A program made the position numbers and the translations under genes. The notes under the pieces are model-generated. The model saw nothing but the letters and a program-made list of their open reading frames with translations, had not been told where the DNA came from and searched no databases. From Spartinivicinus poritis (GTDB taxonomy: Bacteria; Pseudomonadota; Gammaproteobacteria; Pseudomonadales; Zooshikellaceae): a stretch of DNA of 44,561 nucleotides. Of the stretch, positions 36,885-44,212 are shown one piece after another. The DNA lies in NCBI RefSeq assembly GCF_028858535.1, contig NZ_JAPMOU010000043.1, forward strand, positions 1 through 44,561, written 5' to 3'. How positions within the stretch are numbered: position 1 is the first letter of the stretch; the number at the start of each line of letters is the position of its first letter.

Positions 36885-38132
36885 ATGAGCATTAAAGTCA
36901 TTATTAATCGTTTATCAAAAACAAAGCCAAAAGGCCTTGAGTTTCGTCAACATATTAACTTTGTCAGTATACGTCTACATTTTATCTATAAAGGGGTACT
37001 ATGTAAGGAAGTCGTCACTCGCCGTGAAATACCTAAAGAACTATGCAAAACCTCTCTTGCTACTTTTGAGGAAAAGCTTAAATCAGATGTAACCTATACT
37101 AATCGCAAAAAAGAAACAATACTCTATGAAATTGAGAGAAATCTGTTTAGTTACAGCAAGCACTTTCCTAACTCTCAAAAGTGCAAGCTGTTTGGTGAAT
37201 TTTATAATGCTAAAACAACCATTGGTGAGCTACTACAAGACTATATCAACAAAGTTGAGCAGCTTAAAGAAAAGAGCACCGCCAGGAATTATATTAAATC
37301 TATCCGAGGTCAGTTAATCCCTGAATTTGGAAGTATTCCTGCCAGGGAGCTACAACCAAAACATATACGGGATTGGGTATATAAAAAAAGCCTCACATGC
37401 AAGCGTAAAACGATTGCTAACCATCTAATTCCACTTAAACATGTGCTTAGGGATGCCATGATAGATGGGCTAATTCAAACCAATCCACTTGATCTGATTG
37501 ACCTGGACCAAATGATTACAAAACAGTCTAAACGGAGTGATTATATTTGCGATCCATTTAGCTTAGTCGAAATTGAAGCAATATTAGGTGTGATGGAGGG
37601 ACAGGTTAAAAACTATTTTACTACTGCATTTTTTACTGGCATGCGAACAAGCGAGCTTATTGGACTTACCTGGGATAAGGTCAACTTTAAGAAAAAGTAT
37701 ATTACAGTTGATGCCGCCTATGTTGATGGTGAAATGAAAGAAACAAAGACTGGGCAAAAAGGTATTCGCCGCATTTTAATGCTTGCTCCTGTAGAACATG
37801 CCCTACTCGATCAGAAAAAATATACTTCTGACTACCAAGAGTTTGTCTTTCATCATCCTAACCGCCCAGAAAAGTGGTTAAATGACAAACAAGTCCGTGA
37901 ATGGGCTTGGCGCCCTGCCCTGGACAAAGCCAGAGTTAGATACCGAAACCCTTACCAAACTCGACATAGCTTTGCTTGCTTAATGATTGCTCAAAATGAA
38001 AACCTATTCTGGATAGCACAACAGATGGGACATACTGGTGTTGAAATGATCAATCGACACTATGGTAAATATATTGAGCAATATGGGAAACAGTACAAAC
38101 CGAAAAGTGATTTTGCAGAACTTATCAAATAA
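36885..38132 (+). CDS. Tyrosine-family integrase
   Basis: This 415-residue protein has an N-terminal arm-binding region, a SAM-like core domain (about 112-195: 'TIGELLQDYINKVEQLKEKS') and a catalytic domain. The active-site set is Arg254 (TGMRTSELIGLTW), Lys288, Arg360 (YQTRHSFACLMI), His383 (QMGHTG) and Tyr393 (RHYGKY). The first His of the HxxR motif is replaced by Tyr357. It integrates and, with Xis, excises the prophage. It is the last gene of the plus operon, so the right attachment site should lie downstream. Confidence 0.93.
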   Translation: MSIKVIINRLSKTKPKGLEFRQHINFVSIRLHFIYKGVLCKEVVTRREIPKELCKTSLATFEEKLKSDVTYTNRKKETILYEIERNLFSYSKHFPNSQKCKLFGEFYNAKTTIGELLQDYINKVEQLKEKSTARNYIKSIRGQLIPEFGSIPARELQPKHIRDWVYKKSLTCKRKTIANHLIPLKHVLRDAMIDGLIQTNPLDLIDLDQMITKQSKRSDYICDPFSLVEIEAILGVMEGQVKNYFTTAFFTGMRTSELIGLTWDKVNFKKKYITVDAAYVDGEMKETKTGQKGIRRILMLAPVEHALLDQKKYTSDYQEFVFHHPNRPEKWLNDKQVREWAWRPALDKARVRYRNPYQTRHSFACLMIAQNENLFWIAQQMGHTGVEMINRHYGKYIEQYGKQYKPKSDFAELIK

Positions 38133-38254
38133 TAAAGCACCCCTATTTTTTCAGCTGTTTTACTCCACTCTGCTATAGTGGCTTTGAAGACAAGGATACT
38201 CTTGGCTTCTGCCCTGATTCTTTCAACGAAGAGCTGGCATGCTACTCAGATATA

Positions 38255-38476
38255 ATGAGAGTAACAAACTCCGACCGTAAGAAAGCTGTTCCTGTAGGTT
38301 GTCAATCTCTGCCTGATAACACTGTTGTTGTGTTTGATTATGGTGAGTCATTTGTTTTAATATTCCGTGAAGGTCACCCTAGATCAGGGCAATTAGTCTG
38401 GAGACACTTGTCTGAGGGGTATAAGGATGCTGAAACGTTTACCGACTTTGCACAGTTTTTGACTTATTGGATTTAG
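38255..38476 (+). CDS. Hypothetical protein, 73 aa
   Basis: It has no clear ribosome site. 'QSLPDNTVVVFDYGESFVLI' and 'WRHLSEGYKDAETFTDFAQF' form a compact alternation of strands and helices, so it looks like a real protein. It lies 122 bases after the integrase, on the border between prophage and retron-like cassette. No family recognised. Confidence 0.45.
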   Translation: MRVTNSDRKKAVPVGCQSLPDNTVVVFDYGESFVLIFREGHPRSGQLVWRHLSEGYKDAETFTDFAQFLTYWI

Positions 38477-38520
38477 CTTATAATAACTAAGTGATTAAAG
38501 TTGTTACTTGGCCTTATTAT

Positions 38521-39468
38521 TTAACGTAAATCCGAGTTGGGCTTGATTGCATTCAACCTTTCTTTCAATTTACCTCCTTCAACTGGATGCAATTGAGCCA
38601 TTCGACTAATTTTACCAAATAAACTCTTATATTCTTTCTCATATTGCTCACCACCTATTGCAAATTCAGCAAATCTTTCGAGCTTATAAACTTGGGCTCT
38701 TAACTTTTTTCTTTCCTTTTTGGGCAAGGTAGGATAGTCAGAGTTTACATTTAAATTATGTACAGATTGAGGACCATGACTAGGCATTATGCAGTGTTTT
38801 TTTCTATTTGGCTTCCCTCCAATGCTAAAAATCATTTGAATAACCTCACTGATAATGTTGGTTATTTCATTTTTAGATAAAAACTGTTCAGACGAAATTG
38901 TTATATCATCAATATATCTTGAATATTTAATTCCCTTATGTGATAGCTTTTTTACTAGTATAGGCTCTTGCTCCCACAATACGAGATTAGCGATATAGCT
39001 ACTAGTAATTGCACCTTGAGGCAAACTACCTTGAAAAGTTACTAACTCAGTTAGTATAGAGGCCACTTCAGGGGAGAACCCAAATAACTTTAGCCACATC
39101 CTATAGATAACATCACTGTTTATTGAAGGAAAAAAATTTTTTATATCTTCGCTTATTACAAGCCTCTGTCCAGTATGAATTTGACAATTACCAATATAAT
39201 AGCGCCCTTTAATACTTCCTTGTAAATATTGTGGATACAATATATTTGAAAAAATTCTACTCTTTATTAATCGGTGAATAGCTTTTAGATTTTCTTTGAC
39301 ATCAAAAGTAATTCTTTTCTCGCCATCTGGCTTATCAATAGTTTTGGTAATAAAGAAAAACTTGTCTGAATTGGAAGAGAGCTTCAATAACCCTTGATGA
39401 GTTATATTTAATAATTTACATAATGAACTTATCTTAGCTATTGGCTTTTTCGTGTACTGGGGAGTCAT
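38521..39468 (-). CDS. Retron-like reverse transcriptase
   Basis: This 315-residue RT has the ordered motifs 'YLQGSIKGRYYIGNCQIHTG' (RT2), 'ISEDIKNFFPSINS' (RT3, Asp108), 'SLPQGAITSSYIANLVL' (RT4, 148-164) and 'YSRYIDDITIS' (RT5, YIDD at 185-188). The later region 'GKPNRKKHCIM' is followed by 'SVHNLNVNSDYPTLP', where retron RTs carry VTG, and then 'KERKKLRAQVYKLE'. This groups it with retron-type RTs rather than group II intron RTs, which carry maturase domains. It overlaps the XRE gene by 35 bases. It should copy a dedicated RNA, for which a locus is visible upstream. Confidence 0.85.
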   Translation of the reverse strand: MTPQYTKKPIAKISSLCKLLNITHQGLLKLSSNSDKFFFITKTIDKPDGEKRITFDVKENLKAIHRLIKSRIFSNILYPQYLQGSIKGRYYIGNCQIHTGQRLVISEDIKNFFPSINSDVIYRMWLKLFGFSPEVASILTELVTFQGSLPQGAITSSYIANLVLWEQEPILVKKLSHKGIKYSRYIDDITISSEQFLSKNEITNIISEVIQMIFSIGGKPNRKKHCIMPSHGPQSVHNLNVNSDYPTLPKKERKKLRAQVYKLERFAEFAIGGEQYEKEYKSLFGKISRMAQLHPVEGGKLKERLNAIKPNSDLR

Positions 39469-39748
39469 CAGTATTTCTTATTAAATTAATTGCAACACCC
39501 GATAGTTTTTCAGTTAGTTCACTACTTAACGTTGATAACTCACTTTTATCTGCACCTAAAAACGCAACAATGCTGAGAGGTACTTCTAACGCCTCACAAA
39601 TATTATTAATCGTAGAAAAACTGGGGTCTCTTTTGCCTTGCTCAATAAGTGTCAAGTAAGAAATTGAAATTTCAGCTTTTTCAGCCAAGATAGTCTTAGA
39701 AAGCCCCTTCAATTCTCTACATAATTTGATTGCCTTTCCAATGTTCAA
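39434..39748 (-). CDS. XRE HTH protein paired with the reverse transcriptase (TTG start)
   Basis: AGAGGAAG precedes a TTG start that gives 104 residues. The HTH is 'AIKLCRELKGLSKTILAEKA', 'EISISYLTLIEQGKRDPSFS', 'TINNICEALEVPLSIVAFLG'. The end of the gene lies inside the RT frame. An HTH partner adjacent to a retron RT is a known retron architecture, so this is the candidate effector or regulator. Confidence 0.85.
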   Translation of the reverse strand: MNIGKAIKLCRELKGLSKTILAEKAEISISYLTLIEQGKRDPSFSTINNICEALEVPLSIVAFLGADKSELSTLSSELTEKLSGVAINLIRNTDDSPVHEKANS

Positions 39749-39790
39749 AATAAACTTCCTCTTAAATTGAATGGCCTACTGTGCCTCGCG

Positions 39791-40030
39791 CTACAACAAA
39801 TTACTTAGCTTTTCAATCAATTTAGCAATTGACGGTATGTATTGAACTACCTTTCCAATAGCACTCAAGACTTCCATTTGAGAAACATTCTTGTCAGAGC
39901 ATTCTAATTGCTTCTCAAGCAACTCAATTGACTGATCAATTTTTGCAAGTTCACCTGCCTCAACCTCAGTGTGCACCTCTTTTCTAACTTCTCTCAACAA
40001 TTCAAGAGCAGTATGTAAAAGCATACTCAT
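39791..40030 (-). CDS. Small helical protein of the retron-like cassette, 79 aa
   Basis: AAAGGA lies eight bases before ATG 40030. The protein is almost all amphipathic helix ('LHTALELLREVRKEVHTEVE', 'SIELLEKQLECSDKNVSQME', 'VVQYIPSIAKLIEKLSNLL'). The C-terminal helix is hydrophobic. It lies between the structured RNA locus and the HTH gene, all on the minus strand. It could be a small effector or an RT cofactor; no family recognised. Confidence 0.6.
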   Translation of the reverse strand: MSMLLHTALELLREVRKEVHTEVEAGELAKIDQSIELLEKQLECSDKNVSQMEVLSAIGKVVQYIPSIAKLIEKLSNLL

Positions 40031-40297
40031 CTAATACATCCTTTGACTATTCGGTGCAAAATTACACCAGTCGTCAATGTTATTCTGAACCGAATAGGAA
40101 TGAGGTAAAGGCGTAGACCATTCTAGTTCGCTTGCGAAGCAAGCATCAGTCGTGGCTAATATTAACCAATAACTGGCTTGTCCGTGGATAAGACCACCTA
40201 ACCAGAGTGGTCGGCTTAGCAGTAAAGCCGTGTAACAAGTCCAGATAACAGGATGATGAGATCTTTTAAAGAGCACCTAGACGATAGCATCTAGCCT
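40026..40297 (-). ncRNA. Candidate retron msr-msd RNA
   Basis: A dense series of hairpins occupies this interval on the minus strand: 40277-40294 (CTAGA/TCTAG), 40212-40230 (CGGCTT/AAGCCG), 40192-40212 (GACCAC/GTGGTC), 40140-40180 (41 bases, CAAGC, CAGT and TGGTTAAT arms), 40130-40144 (GCTTGC/GCAAGC) and 40047-40097 (CTATTCGG/CCGAATAG). In the 41-base hairpin the only non-Watson-Crick pair is G-U in minus-strand RNA but C-A in plus-strand RNA. Possible end-pairing arms (a1/a2) are CTCATCATCC at 40260-40251 and GGATG...GATGAG at 40041-40026. A TATAAT box lies just upstream. Exact msr/msd ends are not determined. Confidence 0.6.
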
Positions 40298-40301
40298 TGA
40301 A

Positions 40302-40307
40302 ATTATA
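40302..40307 (-). promoter_or_regulatory. TATAAT -10 box for the candidate retron RNA
   Basis: A perfect TATAAT on the minus strand, whose expected start point (about 40295) falls at the first hairpin of the RNA. No -35 close to consensus is seen at 17 bases. The remaining 40308-40585 holds one copy of an imperfect direct repeat (40506-40560) and no convincing ORF. Confidence 0.5.
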
Positions 40308-40505
40308 ATACAGTGGCCACCAAACAAAGTAAACACTTTTTTGACTGACAGTAAAAATTTGCTTAGAGAAGCCCACCATATCTAACTGTAAGGTCGCAGT
40401 TGGAATATAAATATTAGGGTACAATACTAGTGAGTAATAAATAATGAGAAACCAAGAGTCTACCTTACAGCTCCCCTAAACTGCTAACATCAAAAAACCA
40501 ATAAC

Positions 40506-40560
40506 TATCAATAAATTAAGAGAATTGCGTCGGCTTTTCTAGCCTCCCCCCACGCCGTTA
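40506..40560. repeat. Imperfect direct repeat, left copy (flanks phosphatase cassette)
   Basis: TATCAATAAATTAAG...GTCGGCTTTTC aligns without gaps to 41413 onward (TATCAATAAGTTAAG...GTCGGTTTTTC). The two copies are about 907 bases apart and bracket the phosphatase gene pair. They look like old att-type scars. Confidence 0.55.
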
Positions 40561-40585
40561 AGAAAAAACCACAGTGAAAATAGGA

Positions 40586-40939
40586 TTAGCCTAGAGATTT
40601 AAGATCACAAAGATACGGACTCACACTTGCCTCTAACTCAACAATCAGCTCTGGATCCATGTACTTATATTCATCAGGGATATCAAGTACATGGACTGGC
40701 TTAAAGTCTAGCATTCTAGTAAATTCAGCGACCAGCCGGTTTTTATGTTTCTTTTCCATAACGAAGATGACATCAGCCCAGCTAATATCTGCCGGACTAA
40801 CTGTTTTCTTTGCTCTTGGACTTGTGCCTGCTGACCGTGTATTGCAATTGGGATACTTCCTCCACATAGCTTCAGCTGTGGGGCTACGCCATTGATTCCG
40901 GCTGCAAACAAATAATAGATTTGAAATACTACTCACCAT
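40586..40939 (-). CDS. Low-molecular-weight protein tyrosine phosphatase-like protein
   Basis: This 117-residue protein has the P-loop 'LLFVCSRNQWRSPTAEAMWR' (C-x4-x-R-S) and the downstream 'DISWADVIFVMEKKHKNRLV', typical of a short LMW-PTP-like family. The acid loop is 'DIPDEYKYMDPELI' (Asp in place). It would dephosphorylate tyrosine or other phosphate groups. It overlaps the upstream gene by 11 bases. Confidence 0.85.
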   Translation of the reverse strand: MVSSISNLLFVCSRNQWRSPTAEAMWRKYPNCNTRSAGTSPRAKKTVSPADISWADVIFVMEKKHKNRLVAEFTRMLDFKPVHVLDIPDEYKYMDPELIVELEASVSPYLCDLKSLG

Positions 40940-41171: not shown

Positions 41172-41190
41172 CAGCAGCCGCGGTAATACG
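41172..41190 (+). other. 19-base match to the 16S rRNA 530 loop
   Basis: CAGCAGCCGCGGTAATACG is identical to the most conserved part of bacterial 16S rRNA (the 515F region). No other rRNA sequence flanks it. It lies in the leader of the 71-residue gene. Confidence 0.7.
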
Positions 41191-41207: not shown

Positions 41208-41723
41208 TGCTCATTCAATATTAAGAGCATCTAGGTGTCATAAAAAATCCACCGTTATATTAACCAAAACCTATGTATACTAAAAGACTGAAATTCATGG
41301 GCGACCACCAATAAGAATCATTCTTATCAGGCAGCATCATTAAACAGTCGTTTGAGCCAAATCGCTTCCCTTGTACTTCCCCCAACCCCTAGCTACTCAT
41401 AAAACATAGAATTATCAATAAGTTAAGCGGCTTTCGTCGGTTTTTCAATTCCCGCCGCCTCCACCACTTCCACTCACCTTGAATTTCCTCAAACTCCTTT
41501 AAAATCAACCACTTAACGCATTACCTGAAAATCTTACAGGGTGAGGTTTTGTGTGTATTTGGGGACAATTTTCGCACTCGTTTCGCACTCAAACAGCACT
41601 TAGGCAAGAACCAGTCAAAATAAGAACTTGGTTAGGTATGCGATAACAGTATATTGATTAGAGCACTGACCGAAAGTAAAAAGCTTATGGCTTTTCACTC
41701 CCAGGATATTTCGTTAAAAGGTA
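41208..41723. other. Gene-free interval with att-like sequence
   Basis: No convincing ORF or tRNA is present. It includes the right copy of the direct repeat (41413-41466) and a tmRNA-end-like sequence, plus a local repeat TTTCGCACTC (around 41570-41590) that occurs twice. The rest is AT-rich and unassigned. Confidence 0.5.
41413..41466 (+). repeat. Imperfect direct repeat, right copy, ending in a tmRNA 3'-end-like sequence
   Basis: The first 32 bases match 40506 onward. The last 23 bases (41444-41466: TTCAATTCCCGCC then GCCTCCACCA) match the T-loop and acceptor end of gammaproteobacterial tmRNA (ssrA), a common integration site. No other part of ssrA is present, so it is a scar or att core, not the gene. 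Confidence 0.55.
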
Positions 41724-41996
41724 TTAATACCTTCTACGTTGAGGGCGGCTATTAGATTTAGGTTGTGCTTGATTAACTTTGATATTACGACCCTGTAAAG
41801 AGGAACCGTTTAACCCTTTGATAGCTGCATCAGCTTCGGAGTTATTATCCATCTCAACAAAACCAAATCCTTTTGACTGGCCAGAATCCCGGTCAGTAAT
41901 CAGCGTTACATCTGCTACGGCACCATAAGCGGAAAAGGTTTCTTTTAAATCTTCAGCTGTGACATTGTATGACAGGTTGCCAACGTACATTTTCAT
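41724..41996 (-). CDS. RRM-type RNA-binding protein
   Basis: This 90-residue protein is a single RNA-recognition motif: RNP2 'MYVGNLSY', RNP1 'KGFGFVEM', and 'ADAAIKGLNGSSLQGRNIKV'. A short basic tail 'SNSRPQRRRY' follows. Such proteins are typical of aquatic gammaproteobacteria and cyanobacteria and bind RNA, often in the cold. This is probably a host gene outside the mobile elements. Confidence 0.9.
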   Translation of the reverse strand: MKMYVGNLSYNVTAEDLKETFSAYGAVADVTLITDRDSGQSKGFGFVEMDNNSEADAAIKGLNGSSLQGRNIKVNQAQPKSNSRPQRRRY

Positions 41997-42376
41997 GAAT
42001 GCTTCTCTATATAATGTGTGTTGATAGGAATCACTCTACCAGCAACCAATCACACAAATTGCTTGATAGAGAATAAGGGTTGACAGGTTCATGGAAACAG
42101 CAAAGATTTACAGTTCTGAAATTTCAGGAAAGAGAAAGTAGCGGATAGAGTCGCTAAGCTTCTATCAAGACAGGACTTACTAATTAACTTAGTCGGTCGT
42201 TAAAGTACCACACACCAGCAAAGATAGCTCCTACTCAGTAAGCCCAAATTACAGGCATAACAGTGCCTGTAATTTTATTTGTTAAAAATGCAACTCATAC
42301 GATAAAATAATCATATTATCAAAACTTTGAACTTCCACAGTAGTTTGGTAGTTCCACCCCACCCTAAAACAACTAT
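41997..42376. other. Gene-free interval upstream of the RRM gene
   Basis: This 380-base stretch is the leader of the RRM gene and the region downstream of the helicase. Except for the hairpin at 42246-42275 I see no ORF, tRNA or repeat. A long leader is usual for cold-regulated RNA-binding genes, which is an inference. Confidence 0.4.
42246..42275. terminator. 12-bp stem terminator
   Basis: AAATTACAGGCA and TGCCTGTAATTT are exact reverse complements around a six-base loop. T-rich sequence follows on the plus strand (TTTTATTTG), so it is better as a plus-strand terminator, but it also ends the minus-strand helicase transcript. Confidence 0.75.
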
Positions 42377-44212
42377 TCATTTTATTTCTGGCATATCAAC
42401 AACCAAGTCAGAACCTTGTAATAGTTCAGAAATAACTGGCGGCCATTTCCCTTTACTCTTAGTAAAAAAAAGTCTTTCTTTGGCCCTTGAAATACCTACA
42501 AAAAAAGAATTTTTTTCTTCTCTTTGTTTCTCTGAATCGCATTGTTGAACAGCTTTGCATAACCCCCACCAAGAATCTTCATGGAAGTCAACAAAAAATA
42601 CCGTATCAAACTCAAGTCCTTTGCTTTTGTGTATAGTCATCAGCTTGACTTGATTTATTCCTTCATAATCATTTATTGCTTGCTCAATAATCTGTAAATT
42701 TTTATCCAGCGCATTTTGAAAAAGGGTACAAAAGGACTTAATTACCTTAGTTAAATATTGTGACTTATATTGAGGAAAAACAGCTTTTATCCTCTCATCA
42801 CCAATGACCTCTATGATTTTATTAACGGATTTTTCTATAGAACTGGAAAGATCAAGAAATAACGTCAAGTTTACAATAAATTCTCTTAGCCTCTTATAGT
42901 CCCTATCTTGACTCAAATCATAGCCTGTGAAAAATGACGAAAGTCTCTCAAGTTCTTTTTCTTGCATGTAGTTAATATAACCAACTTTATATCTAATGAG
43001 TAGTATCAAAAAAACAGAGAGAGGCTCAACCATAAGGTCTTGTATTTTAACTCCGTCCTCAACAACCAACGCATCCTCATTTCGAAGATTAAGGCCATTA
43101 TTTTGGAAAATTTCGTTCGATAGCTCAAAATAATCTTGAGATTTTTGCCTTAATATAAGAACAAAATCACTTGGCGTTAAATAAACATTATCACTTATAA
43201 TTAAATTAATAAATTTGGAAATGTATTCAGACTCTCTATTTACATCATCAAATTTTTTTATCCCTATACTAAGAGCAGGCGGAGAATCTGTTCTAGTTCC
43301 TTGATAAACTATAGGTTCTTCTCCCTTTGGTGTTAAATCTTTAATAACATAATTTACGAGCCCAATAATATTGGAATTAGATCGATGATTAATTACTAAA
43401 GGAATGATCTCTAAATTGAAATCTTTCTTTAGATTTTCAAAGTTTTTGGGATTAGCACCAGCCCACCCCATTATCATTTGGTTTGCATCTCCTACAGCTG
43501 TAATTATTGTATCACTCCCCTTAAAAACAGTTTTCACAAAACTATATTGTGCGTTTGTCATGTCCTGAAATTCATCAAGAAAAAGATATTTGTAAGTTGA
43601 TAAAATTAAGTTTCTTACCTGGAGATAATTTTTAACAATAGTAAAAGCCATAGAGCAGCACATAGAGTAGTCAGCAATTTTATTTACTGTGCAATAATCC
43701 CAAAAATTTACTATTGCTCCATTGGGTTCTAAACTTAAATCTAACGGAGAGTATGATTTTTTACAATGAAATACCTGACCTCCTAGTTCTTTTCTCTGAT
43801 AATCATCCCACCAGTACTTATCAAAAGGATAAACATCAAAATTTGCTGGCATCTGTATCCAATCAGGCAAAAGCGTGGAAAACCTACGTACAATAGATAT
43901 GAAAAATGCGTCGAATGTTGAGGAGATAAATCTTCTAGATAACTCCCTGCCACAGCGTAAAGTAACTCTGTTATTAATATTGGTAGCTGCATCTACTTTA
44001 AAACTAAGAGCTAATATTTTTTGAGGTGCTTTACATATACCGGTTTGCAATAAAAAATTGGCACGCTGTGCCAAAATTTCAGTTTTTCCTGCACCAGGGC
44101 CAGCAAGAATAGATAAGTTTTTATACTTTTCTTTTATGATTTTATCTTCAGTTTCTGTAGCTATAAAACCATTGCTTGGCTTCCATAGGTCAGAAGACAG
44201 ATATTTACTCAT
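42377..44212 (-). CDS. UvrD/Rep-type superfamily 1 helicase (Gabija GajB-like position)
   Basis: This 611-residue helicase has Walker A 'AGPGAGKTEIL' (37-47), motif II 'YLFLDEFQDM' (209-218), motif III 'AVGDANQMIMGWAGA' (239-253), motif V 'MTIHKSKGLEFDTVFF' and motif VI 'VGISRAKERLFF'. It unwinds DNA 3' to 5' by family. Its ATG overlaps the stop of the upstream gene. A UvrD-type helicase translationally coupled to an upstream nuclease-type gene is the arrangement of Gabija (GajA-GajB); the partner here is too incomplete to confirm this. Confidence 0.85.
   Translation of the reverse strand: MSKYLSSDLWKPSNGFIATETEDKIIKEKYKNLSILAGPGAGKTEILAQRANFLLQTGICKAPQKILALSFKVDAATNINNRVTLRCGRELSRRFISSTFDAFFISIVRRFSTLLPDWIQMPANFDVYPFDKYWWDDYQRKELGGQVFHCKKSYSPLDLSLEPNGAIVNFWDYCTVNKIADYSMCCSMAFTIVKNYLQVRNLILSTYKYLFLDEFQDMTNAQYSFVKTVFKGSDTIITAVGDANQMIMGWAGANPKNFENLKKDFNLEIIPLVINHRSNSNIIGLVNYVIKDLTPKGEEPIVYQGTRTDSPPALSIGIKKFDDVNRESEYISKFINLIISDNVYLTPSDFVLILRQKSQDYFELSNEIFQNNGLNLRNEDALVVEDGVKIQDLMVEPLSVFLILLIRYKVGYINYMQEKELERLSSFFTGYDLSQDRDYKRLREFIVNLTLFLDLSSSIEKSVNKIIEVIGDERIKAVFPQYKSQYLTKVIKSFCTLFQNALDKNLQIIEQAINDYEGINQVKLMTIHKSKGLEFDTVFFVDFHEDSWWGLCKAVQQCDSEKQREEKNSFFVGISRAKERLFFTKSKGKWPPVISELLQGSDLVVDMPEIK

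Follow-up and report, generated by a model that had tools for sequence, protein, structure and literature searches.

A probable type VI retron carried by a prophage of Spartinivicinus poritis, and a possible translational lock on its small protein

Retrons are reverse-transcriptase elements thought to defend against phages, and the type VI retron class is reportedly that of Mestre et al., 2020. The stretch of DNA analyzed here (the window, 44,561 nucleotides), which makes up one whole contig of a 6.83-Mb genome, carries on its minus strand a reverse transcriptase (RT) gene headed by smaller genes and a hairpin-rich RNA. This raises the question of which kind of RT element the locus represents and how its parts could act together. 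Read along the minus strand from approximately 40357 to 38521, the order is a dyad, a −10 box, the hairpin-rich RNA, an open reading frame (ORF) of 79 amino acids (SP), a helix-turn-helix (HTH) gene, and the RT gene; the HTH and RT genes overlap by 35 bases. An earlier reading made from the sequence alone had listed a structured RNA, a 79-aa protein, an XRE HTH protein, and an RT as co-directional and lying behind a TATAAT box. All of these are present, with two corrections: the retron RNA extends into the start of the 79-aa gene, and a dyad lies upstream of the TATAAT box. The features, with the basis for each, are as follows.

40338-40357, minus strand: dyad TTTTTACTGTCAGTCAAAAA, predicted HTH operator (8/8 positions; relatives)
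40302-40307, minus strand: −10 box TATAAT (consensus match only)
40277-40294, minus strand: 5′ hairpin of 7 bp with loop CTAT, near the expected transcript start (arm pairing, 24 loci)
40263-40273, minus strand: conserved box CTCTTTAAAAG, 3′ of the 5′ hairpin (same position, with variation, in most relatives)
40251-40262, minus strand: a1 arm ATCTCATCATCC, pairs with a2 (arm swaps, base-pair ensemble)
40173-40244, minus strand: possible msr-like part, stem CTGGACTTGT/ACAAGCCAG enclosing hairpins 40212-40230 and 40193-40211 (drawn by eye)
40130-40168, minus strand: two short hairpins (40153-40168 and 40130-40144) in the middle, variable part of the RNA (both form in the minimum-energy fold)
40047-40097, minus strand: long 3′ hairpin of 51 bases, CTATTCGGT ... 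ACCGAATAG (half swaps, folds)
40026-40041, minus strand: a2 arm forming the 3′ end of the retron RNA and stretching from the Shine-Dalgarno region of SP into its start codon (arm swaps)
39791-40030, minus strand: type VI small protein (SP), 79 aa (PADLOC SP_VI; AlphaFold2)
39434-39748, minus strand: XRE-type HTH protein, 104 aa, TTG start (PADLOC HTH_VI; Pfam HTH_3)
38521-39468, minus strand: retron reverse transcriptase, 315 aa (PADLOC RT_VI; Pfam RVT_1; tree; alignment)

PADLOC profiles matched the products of all three genes: the RT with RT_VI (9.2e-77; the next model was RT_V at 1.4e-72), the HTH protein with HTH_VI (4.8e-27), and the small protein with SP_VI (6.8e-11). Pfam identified RVT_1 in the RT (2e-15) and HTH_3 in the HTH protein (3e-11), and judged by such scores the cassette genes are far above chance matches. 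Rfam at gathering scores gave no match anywhere in the window. All 25 of the 25 PADLOC models listed for the RT were retron RT models by name, and the closest solved chains by sequence were the RTs of retrons Ec86 (1.6e-20), Kva2, and Ec67. In a midpoint-rooted tree of 45 RT rows, for which no DGR or Abi rows were chosen, the window RT fell within a type VI group of 25 rows (support 98/92) that excluded both the type V rows and the retron-like RTs carried by P2-like and Mu-like phages. Its nearest rows came from Moraxella lacunata, an Alteromonas plasmid, and a viral contig (support 100/98). Among the row labels, L049 was tagged type VI by default but groups with type V and is itself truncated, L043 was tagged as lacking an HTH gene though its upstream part is absent, and L025 sits on a long branch. 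Because three PADLOC type VI models match and the RT lies within the type VI group, the cassette is almost certainly a type VI retron, which agrees with the HTH-associated retron proposed in the sequence-only reading.

The window RT carries YIDD, a region X of NCQIH (canonical NAxxH), and VHN (in SVHNLNVN) in place of VTG. The YIDD and VHN-type motifs had been noted earlier, and the loss of VTG together with the extra 79-aa gene had been taken as possible signs of a divergent subtype. This proposal was abandoned, as every such mark occurs in ordinary type VI retrons. A small protein is standard there, with SP_VI models of its own, and across 13 aligned relatives the VTG position reads VTG in four, VHG in two, and VTQ, ATK, VHD, ITG, ITK, VTS, or VTK in one each; the positions of region X (NAxxH) and region Y (VTG) both vary among relatives. 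A T-to-H change is already listed for RT-Eco6 in a review (PMC6868368), and another source describes type VI as an RT with a DNA-binding protein and small auxiliary proteins (PMC8541194). As in type VI retrons recognized by PADLOC RT_VI, HTH_VI, and SP_VI, the window cassette has a structured RNA followed by SP, an XRE-type HTH gene, and the RT gene, and no feature was seen that sets it apart as a subtype. The SP-HTH-RT gene order was also found in annotated plasmid records. On these comparisons, the window cassette is one more ordinary type VI retron, its small protein and VHN included.

The cassette was also compared with other known systems. The closest solved RT by sequence, that of Retron-Eco1 (Ec86), belongs to a different retron type with other partner genes and differs from the window in both respects. 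Type V retrons of the Se72 kind provide the next best RT model and the neighboring group in the midpoint-rooted tree. As in type VI, a short ORF with a hydrophobic end lies just before the RT gene in type V loci L017, L028, and L039 (by eye), and a seemingly similar 5′ hairpin was seen by eye in L017 and L039. All five loci labeled type V in the tree have a cold-shock-like ORF after the RT gene (by motif or by eye), one of them annotated as a retron Se72 effector, whereas the window has no cold-shock gene after the RT gene; past the stop at 38521, the first ORF of 60 aa or more is 38255-38476 on the opposite strand, whose sole match is a weak one to SUKH (E value, 0.04). Retron-like units have been described in phages MuM16-1, P2_2H1, ST147-VIM1phi7.1, and KS5, in which, as in the window, the unit is phage borne and the HTH gene overlaps the RT gene (PMC8541194). 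Short upstream ORFs are described for two of the four units, and the authors suppose the MuM16-1 unit to correspond to type VI (PMC8541194). Unlike the window RT, the RTs of these four phages, together with two further phages and L021, form a separate tree group (100/99), and the short ORF in five of the six phage loci spans approximately 48 to 55 codons (starts chosen by the analyst), compared with 79 aa for the window SP.

The surroundings of the cassette are those of a phage. PHROGs named 8 of the 10 scanned proteins as terminase, portal, head protease, tape measure, tail sheath, tail protein or fiber, replication initiation, and integrase; on the strength of these eight phage functions, the element in the window is a prophage and the retron is its cargo. 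Thirty bases at 41444-41473 are identical to the 3′ end of the tmRNA gene of the genome plus the next seven bases (contig C18), and based on this identity the prophage most likely integrated at ssrA, which would place the retron between the integrase gene and the attachment site. A convergent integrase gene adjoins the retron unit both in the window and in the Alteromonas plasmid. Between the retron and the attachment site lies an ORF of 117 aa (40586-40939) that matches low-molecular-weight phosphatase over two stretches (2.6e-7). The sequence CAGCAGCCGCGGTAATACG at 41172-41190 is what we take to be a universal 16S rRNA primer region, and no rRNA gene was found around it in the window by Rfam. 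Beside the attachment site, a small gene (41723-42073), judged by eye to be of the RNA-binding RRM type, is 80% identical to a copy that contig C18 carries close to the intact tmRNA gene (L070, 1620-1973); a UvrD-like helicase gene (611 aa, 42377-44212) lies past the site. The genome holds two further retron-related RTs, L002 on contig C11 and L003 on contig C23; L018 and L019, from the same genus, are close relatives of the former.

To compare the cassette across loci, relatives of the RT were collected from several sources. Whole-genome searches at 1e-35 identified relatives in 7 of 369 genomes of the class and 10 of 390 of the order, and at 1e-38 in 7 of 398 of the phylum; these draws overlap, each count includes the genome of the window, and some matches are type V. 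Smaller RT searches had hits in 6 of 37 relatives (at 1e-10, other RTs for the most part), in 1 of 6, and in 1 of 48. A search of genome contigs gave 7 loci, and viral contigs gave 9 loci with an alignment as the query and none with the window RT as the sole query. Among plasmids, 157 records passed a cutoff of 1e-5 and 37 passed 1e-25, and by their RT many of them are type V-like. Near-duplicates (L007, L008, L009, L022, L030, L042, and L048) were dropped and L043, whose contig starts at the RT gene, was excluded, which left 24 nonredundant type VI loci, window included, 18 with an HTH ORF and 6 without. L026, which is close to L015, was kept for the 24-locus tests and dropped for the sliding-window test (n = 23); in a 17-locus swap test, with L026 also dropped, 1 of 20,000 swaps was as good by energy. 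The swap tests cover type VI loci alone, with phage loci L035 and L050 to L054 outside the set. SP start codons were picked by eye (that of L045 was shifted to a later ATG), as were some hairpins; a script located most of the 5′ hairpins, those of L025, L037, L041, and L044 to L047 being set by eye, with small trims elsewhere.

Pairing in the RNA was assessed by swapping arms between loci rather than by a covariance model; a MAFFT alignment of the 3′ part split the hairpin and was not used. In the 5′ hairpin, 165 of 168 pairs are formed across the 24 loci from 22 distinct sequences, and none of 50,000 arm swaps exceeded 144 pairs. A CTCTTTAAA-like box follows this hairpin in most of the 24 loci. 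The long 3′ hairpin stands directly before the SP gene in the 24 loci, and its halves pair at −23.79 kcal/mol with their own partners versus −16.02 kcal/mol when swapped (own pairing equaled in 0 of 50,000 swaps). Only 14 of 24 rows, however, rank their own partner first or second. Since arms and halves alike beat all 50,000 swaps between loci, the structured RNA is by this measure more than a chance fold, and the conserved covarying structure expected from the first description was found in both hairpins. The 51-base hairpin at 40047-40097 contains G-U pairs if read as minus-strand RNA. Such a pair had been claimed for a 41-base hairpin of unstated position; the minus-strand RNA stands, and that hairpin is probably part of the longer one, which is likely to be the msd or part of it. 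The stretch at 40173-40244 could be the msr-like part, of which the minimum-energy fold forms the hairpin 40212-40230 only. A half-site-like CGACTGG in the 3′ hairpin of some loci was considered as an operator dyad copy serving as a decoy for the HTH protein, and this was rejected, as the motif is absent (by eye) in some HTH loci. In viral contigs L044 to L048 the unit is RNA, SP, and RT with no HTH gene between SP and RT, and in L044, L046, and L048 the RNA part measures approximately 450 to 510 bases.

Downstream of the 5′ hairpin and its box, the a1 arm is complementary to a2 at the beginning of the SP gene. Across the 24 loci, own a1/a2 pairing scored −14.27 kcal/mol versus −10.41 kcal/mol for swapped arms, and none of 50,000 swaps was as good. 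When the partner window was slid along 23 loci, z was 4.9 at −60 to −27, 6.5 at −28 to +5, and 7.8 at −14 to +19 relative to the SP AUG. Nine further positions gave z of −1.1 to 2.0, with the top value at +200 to +233 (116 of 4,000 swaps as good). Within the −28 to +5 window used for a2, which partly sets its exact place, the best helix of the 24 loci lay at −18 to +5, mostly over the Shine-Dalgarno region. It takes in the AUG itself in L044 to L047 and in the window (CTCATC/GATGAG), and stops some bases short of it in several loci. The window helix alone is modest, its single-helix score being matched by 4 of 23 other loci; in its base-pair ensemble the A, U, and G of the SP AUG pair with the a1 window at 0.81, 0.73, and 0.33, and the stem appears in this ensemble only, the minimum-energy fold of the window RNA having no a1:a2 stem. 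L031, L041, and L006 showed no own-specific helix (21, 13, and 14 of 23 others score as well), and in the remaining 21 of 24 loci, window included, 0 to 6 of the 23 others do. Thus, by these swaps, the 3′ arm of the retron RNA stem sits at the SP translation start across relatives. The long 3′ hairpin itself extends to the Shine-Dalgarno sequence in several loci, so a1 may be dispensable for masking.

An SP-like ORF was present in all 24 loci, while six (L011, L027, L044, L045, L046, and L047) lack an HTH ORF between SP and RT. A profile built from ten type VI HTH proteins and run in all frames over these six stretches gave one weak match, far downstream in L046 (E value, 0.0027), while the same profile found the HTH gene in type VI controls L013, L016, L025, and L037 (E values of ≤2.3e-25). 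The six loci occupy three places in the RT tree, which implies two or three losses of the HTH gene. The SP sequences are divergent, with 12 to 30% identity to the window SP, and two SP_VI models match 12 and 10 of 19 SPs (at 0.01). AlphaFold2 with a 12-row alignment predicted four helices for the window SP (mean pLDDT, 77.9), the last part of which is hydrophobic by eye. A fold search of this protein against the PDB gave no match at an E value of 0.001 or better, and Pfam gave only DELLA, under the cutoff (E value, 0.15). Because the HTH gene is missing from 6 of 24 loci and the SP-like ORF from none, SP rather than the HTH protein is the likely effector.

The HTH protein may have another role. 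The window has ACTGTCAGT within TTTTTACTGTCAGTCAAAAA, in the 110 bases that precede the 5′ hairpin; it agrees with the dyad at 8 of 8 positions, a score equaled by 0 of 500 shuffles. The dyad ACTGNCAGT was found at 7 or more of 8 positions in 10 of 18 HTH loci versus 0 of 6 HTH-less loci (Fisher P = 0.024), a score that is not a blind test, as the motif was first noticed by eye and scored afterwards; the other 8 HTH loci score 6 or lower. In the recognition-helix region, extracted by script from all but five HTH loci, SY(L/I)(S/T)(L/M)(L/I)E was found in nine loci with a dyad score of 7 or 8 and also in L029, despite a score of 6, while L041, L006, and L025, with scores of 5, 4, and 6, have a differing region. 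The dyad at 40338-40357 thus seems to belong to the cassette as well, and the HTH protein could be an autorepressor acting at this predicted operator. A promoter scan paired TATTAT (40305-40310) with TTTACT (40328-40333). Promoter-like sites in 38100-40600 numbered 5 against a shuffle mean of 7.9, and with no excess over shuffles the TATAAT box alone proves little. Taken by sequence comparison, the dyad, promoter-like box, structured RNA, SP, HTH, and RT are one unit of the type VI branch.

No account of the type VI mechanism was found in the open-licence literature searched. The explanation that we favor, with confidence that is about even, is a complete type VI retron carried by a prophage, with an HTH repressor, an a1:a2 lock, and SP as the effector. 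The HTH protein would bind the dyad and repress the promoter. Once made, the transcript would fold so that a1 pairs with a2, and the resulting stem would hold the RNA for 2′,5′-primed reverse transcription by the RT, by analogy with other retrons. The same stem would hide the SP start site, so that one transcript could serve either msDNA or SP synthesis. SP, as a small helical protein with a hydrophobic end, would be the effector, held at a low level through masking and perhaps, in addition, through binding the RT-RNA-DNA complex directly. A phage that disturbs the complex or the repressor would cause SP to be made or freed, and the cell could be stopped before the phage spreads. The narrower proposal for type VI as a whole, that the RT-priming stem doubles as a translational lock on the effector and commits each transcript to msDNA or SP under the HTH autorepressor, is plausible but somewhat short of even.

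Several other explanations were weighed against this one. The suggestion that the locus is not a retron, its RT being of the DGR, Abi, or another kind and the structured leader unrelated, could draw on the replaced VTG and the lack of an Rfam match, but the strength of the RT_VI match, the retron names of all 25 models listed, the Ec86, Kva2, and Ec67 RTs as nearest solved chains, and the support of the type VI group, in a tree without purpose-chosen DGR or Abi rows, make it extremely improbable. Closer to the favored explanation is one in which the overlap of a2 with the SP start reflects tight gene packing, the pairing serving RT priming with no effect on SP translation. Retron RNAs generally lie directly before the next gene, and in several loci the best helix falls some bases short of the AUG, both as packing would predict. 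However, that helix falls at −18 to +5 in 24 very divergent loci and covers the AUG in L044 to L047 and the window, and the swap signal peaks over the start codon; packing alone is therefore rather unlikely, if still a serious contender.

The remaining alternatives concern SP itself. It could be a helper of the RT-RNA complex, acting in msDNA synthesis or folding rather than as a toxin, with another part as the effector, since it is the constant partner of the RNA and the RT and its gene starts at the a2 arm of the RNA. Yet no other constant candidate for the effector is apparent, the HTH gene being missing in 6 of 24 loci and the observed downstream genes varying by locus, and divergence to 12 to 30% identity would be more usual for an effector in conflict; a helper role is considered unlikely. 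It is a shade less probable that SP and HTH form an ordinary toxin-antitoxin pair, with HTH as antitoxin and repressor and the RT-msDNA as an added sensor. XRE antitoxins that repress their own promoters are common, and SP and HTH are adjacent in 18 of 24 loci, but 6 of 24 loci, at three places in the tree, lack the HTH ORF while retaining the SP-like ORF, and a toxin without its antitoxin should not survive.

Returning to the favored explanation, in which SP is the effector and the retron stem locks its start site, a sequestration model has been stated for retrons (PMC12548924), and a translational lock, if true, would add a layer to it. Besides holding the completed protein, the retron would in that case use its own RNA to regulate the effector at the level of translation. 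The comparison thus yields testable proposals for the type VI family: SP as the effector, a start site locked by the retron stem, and a specific operator sequence to which the HTH protein would bind.
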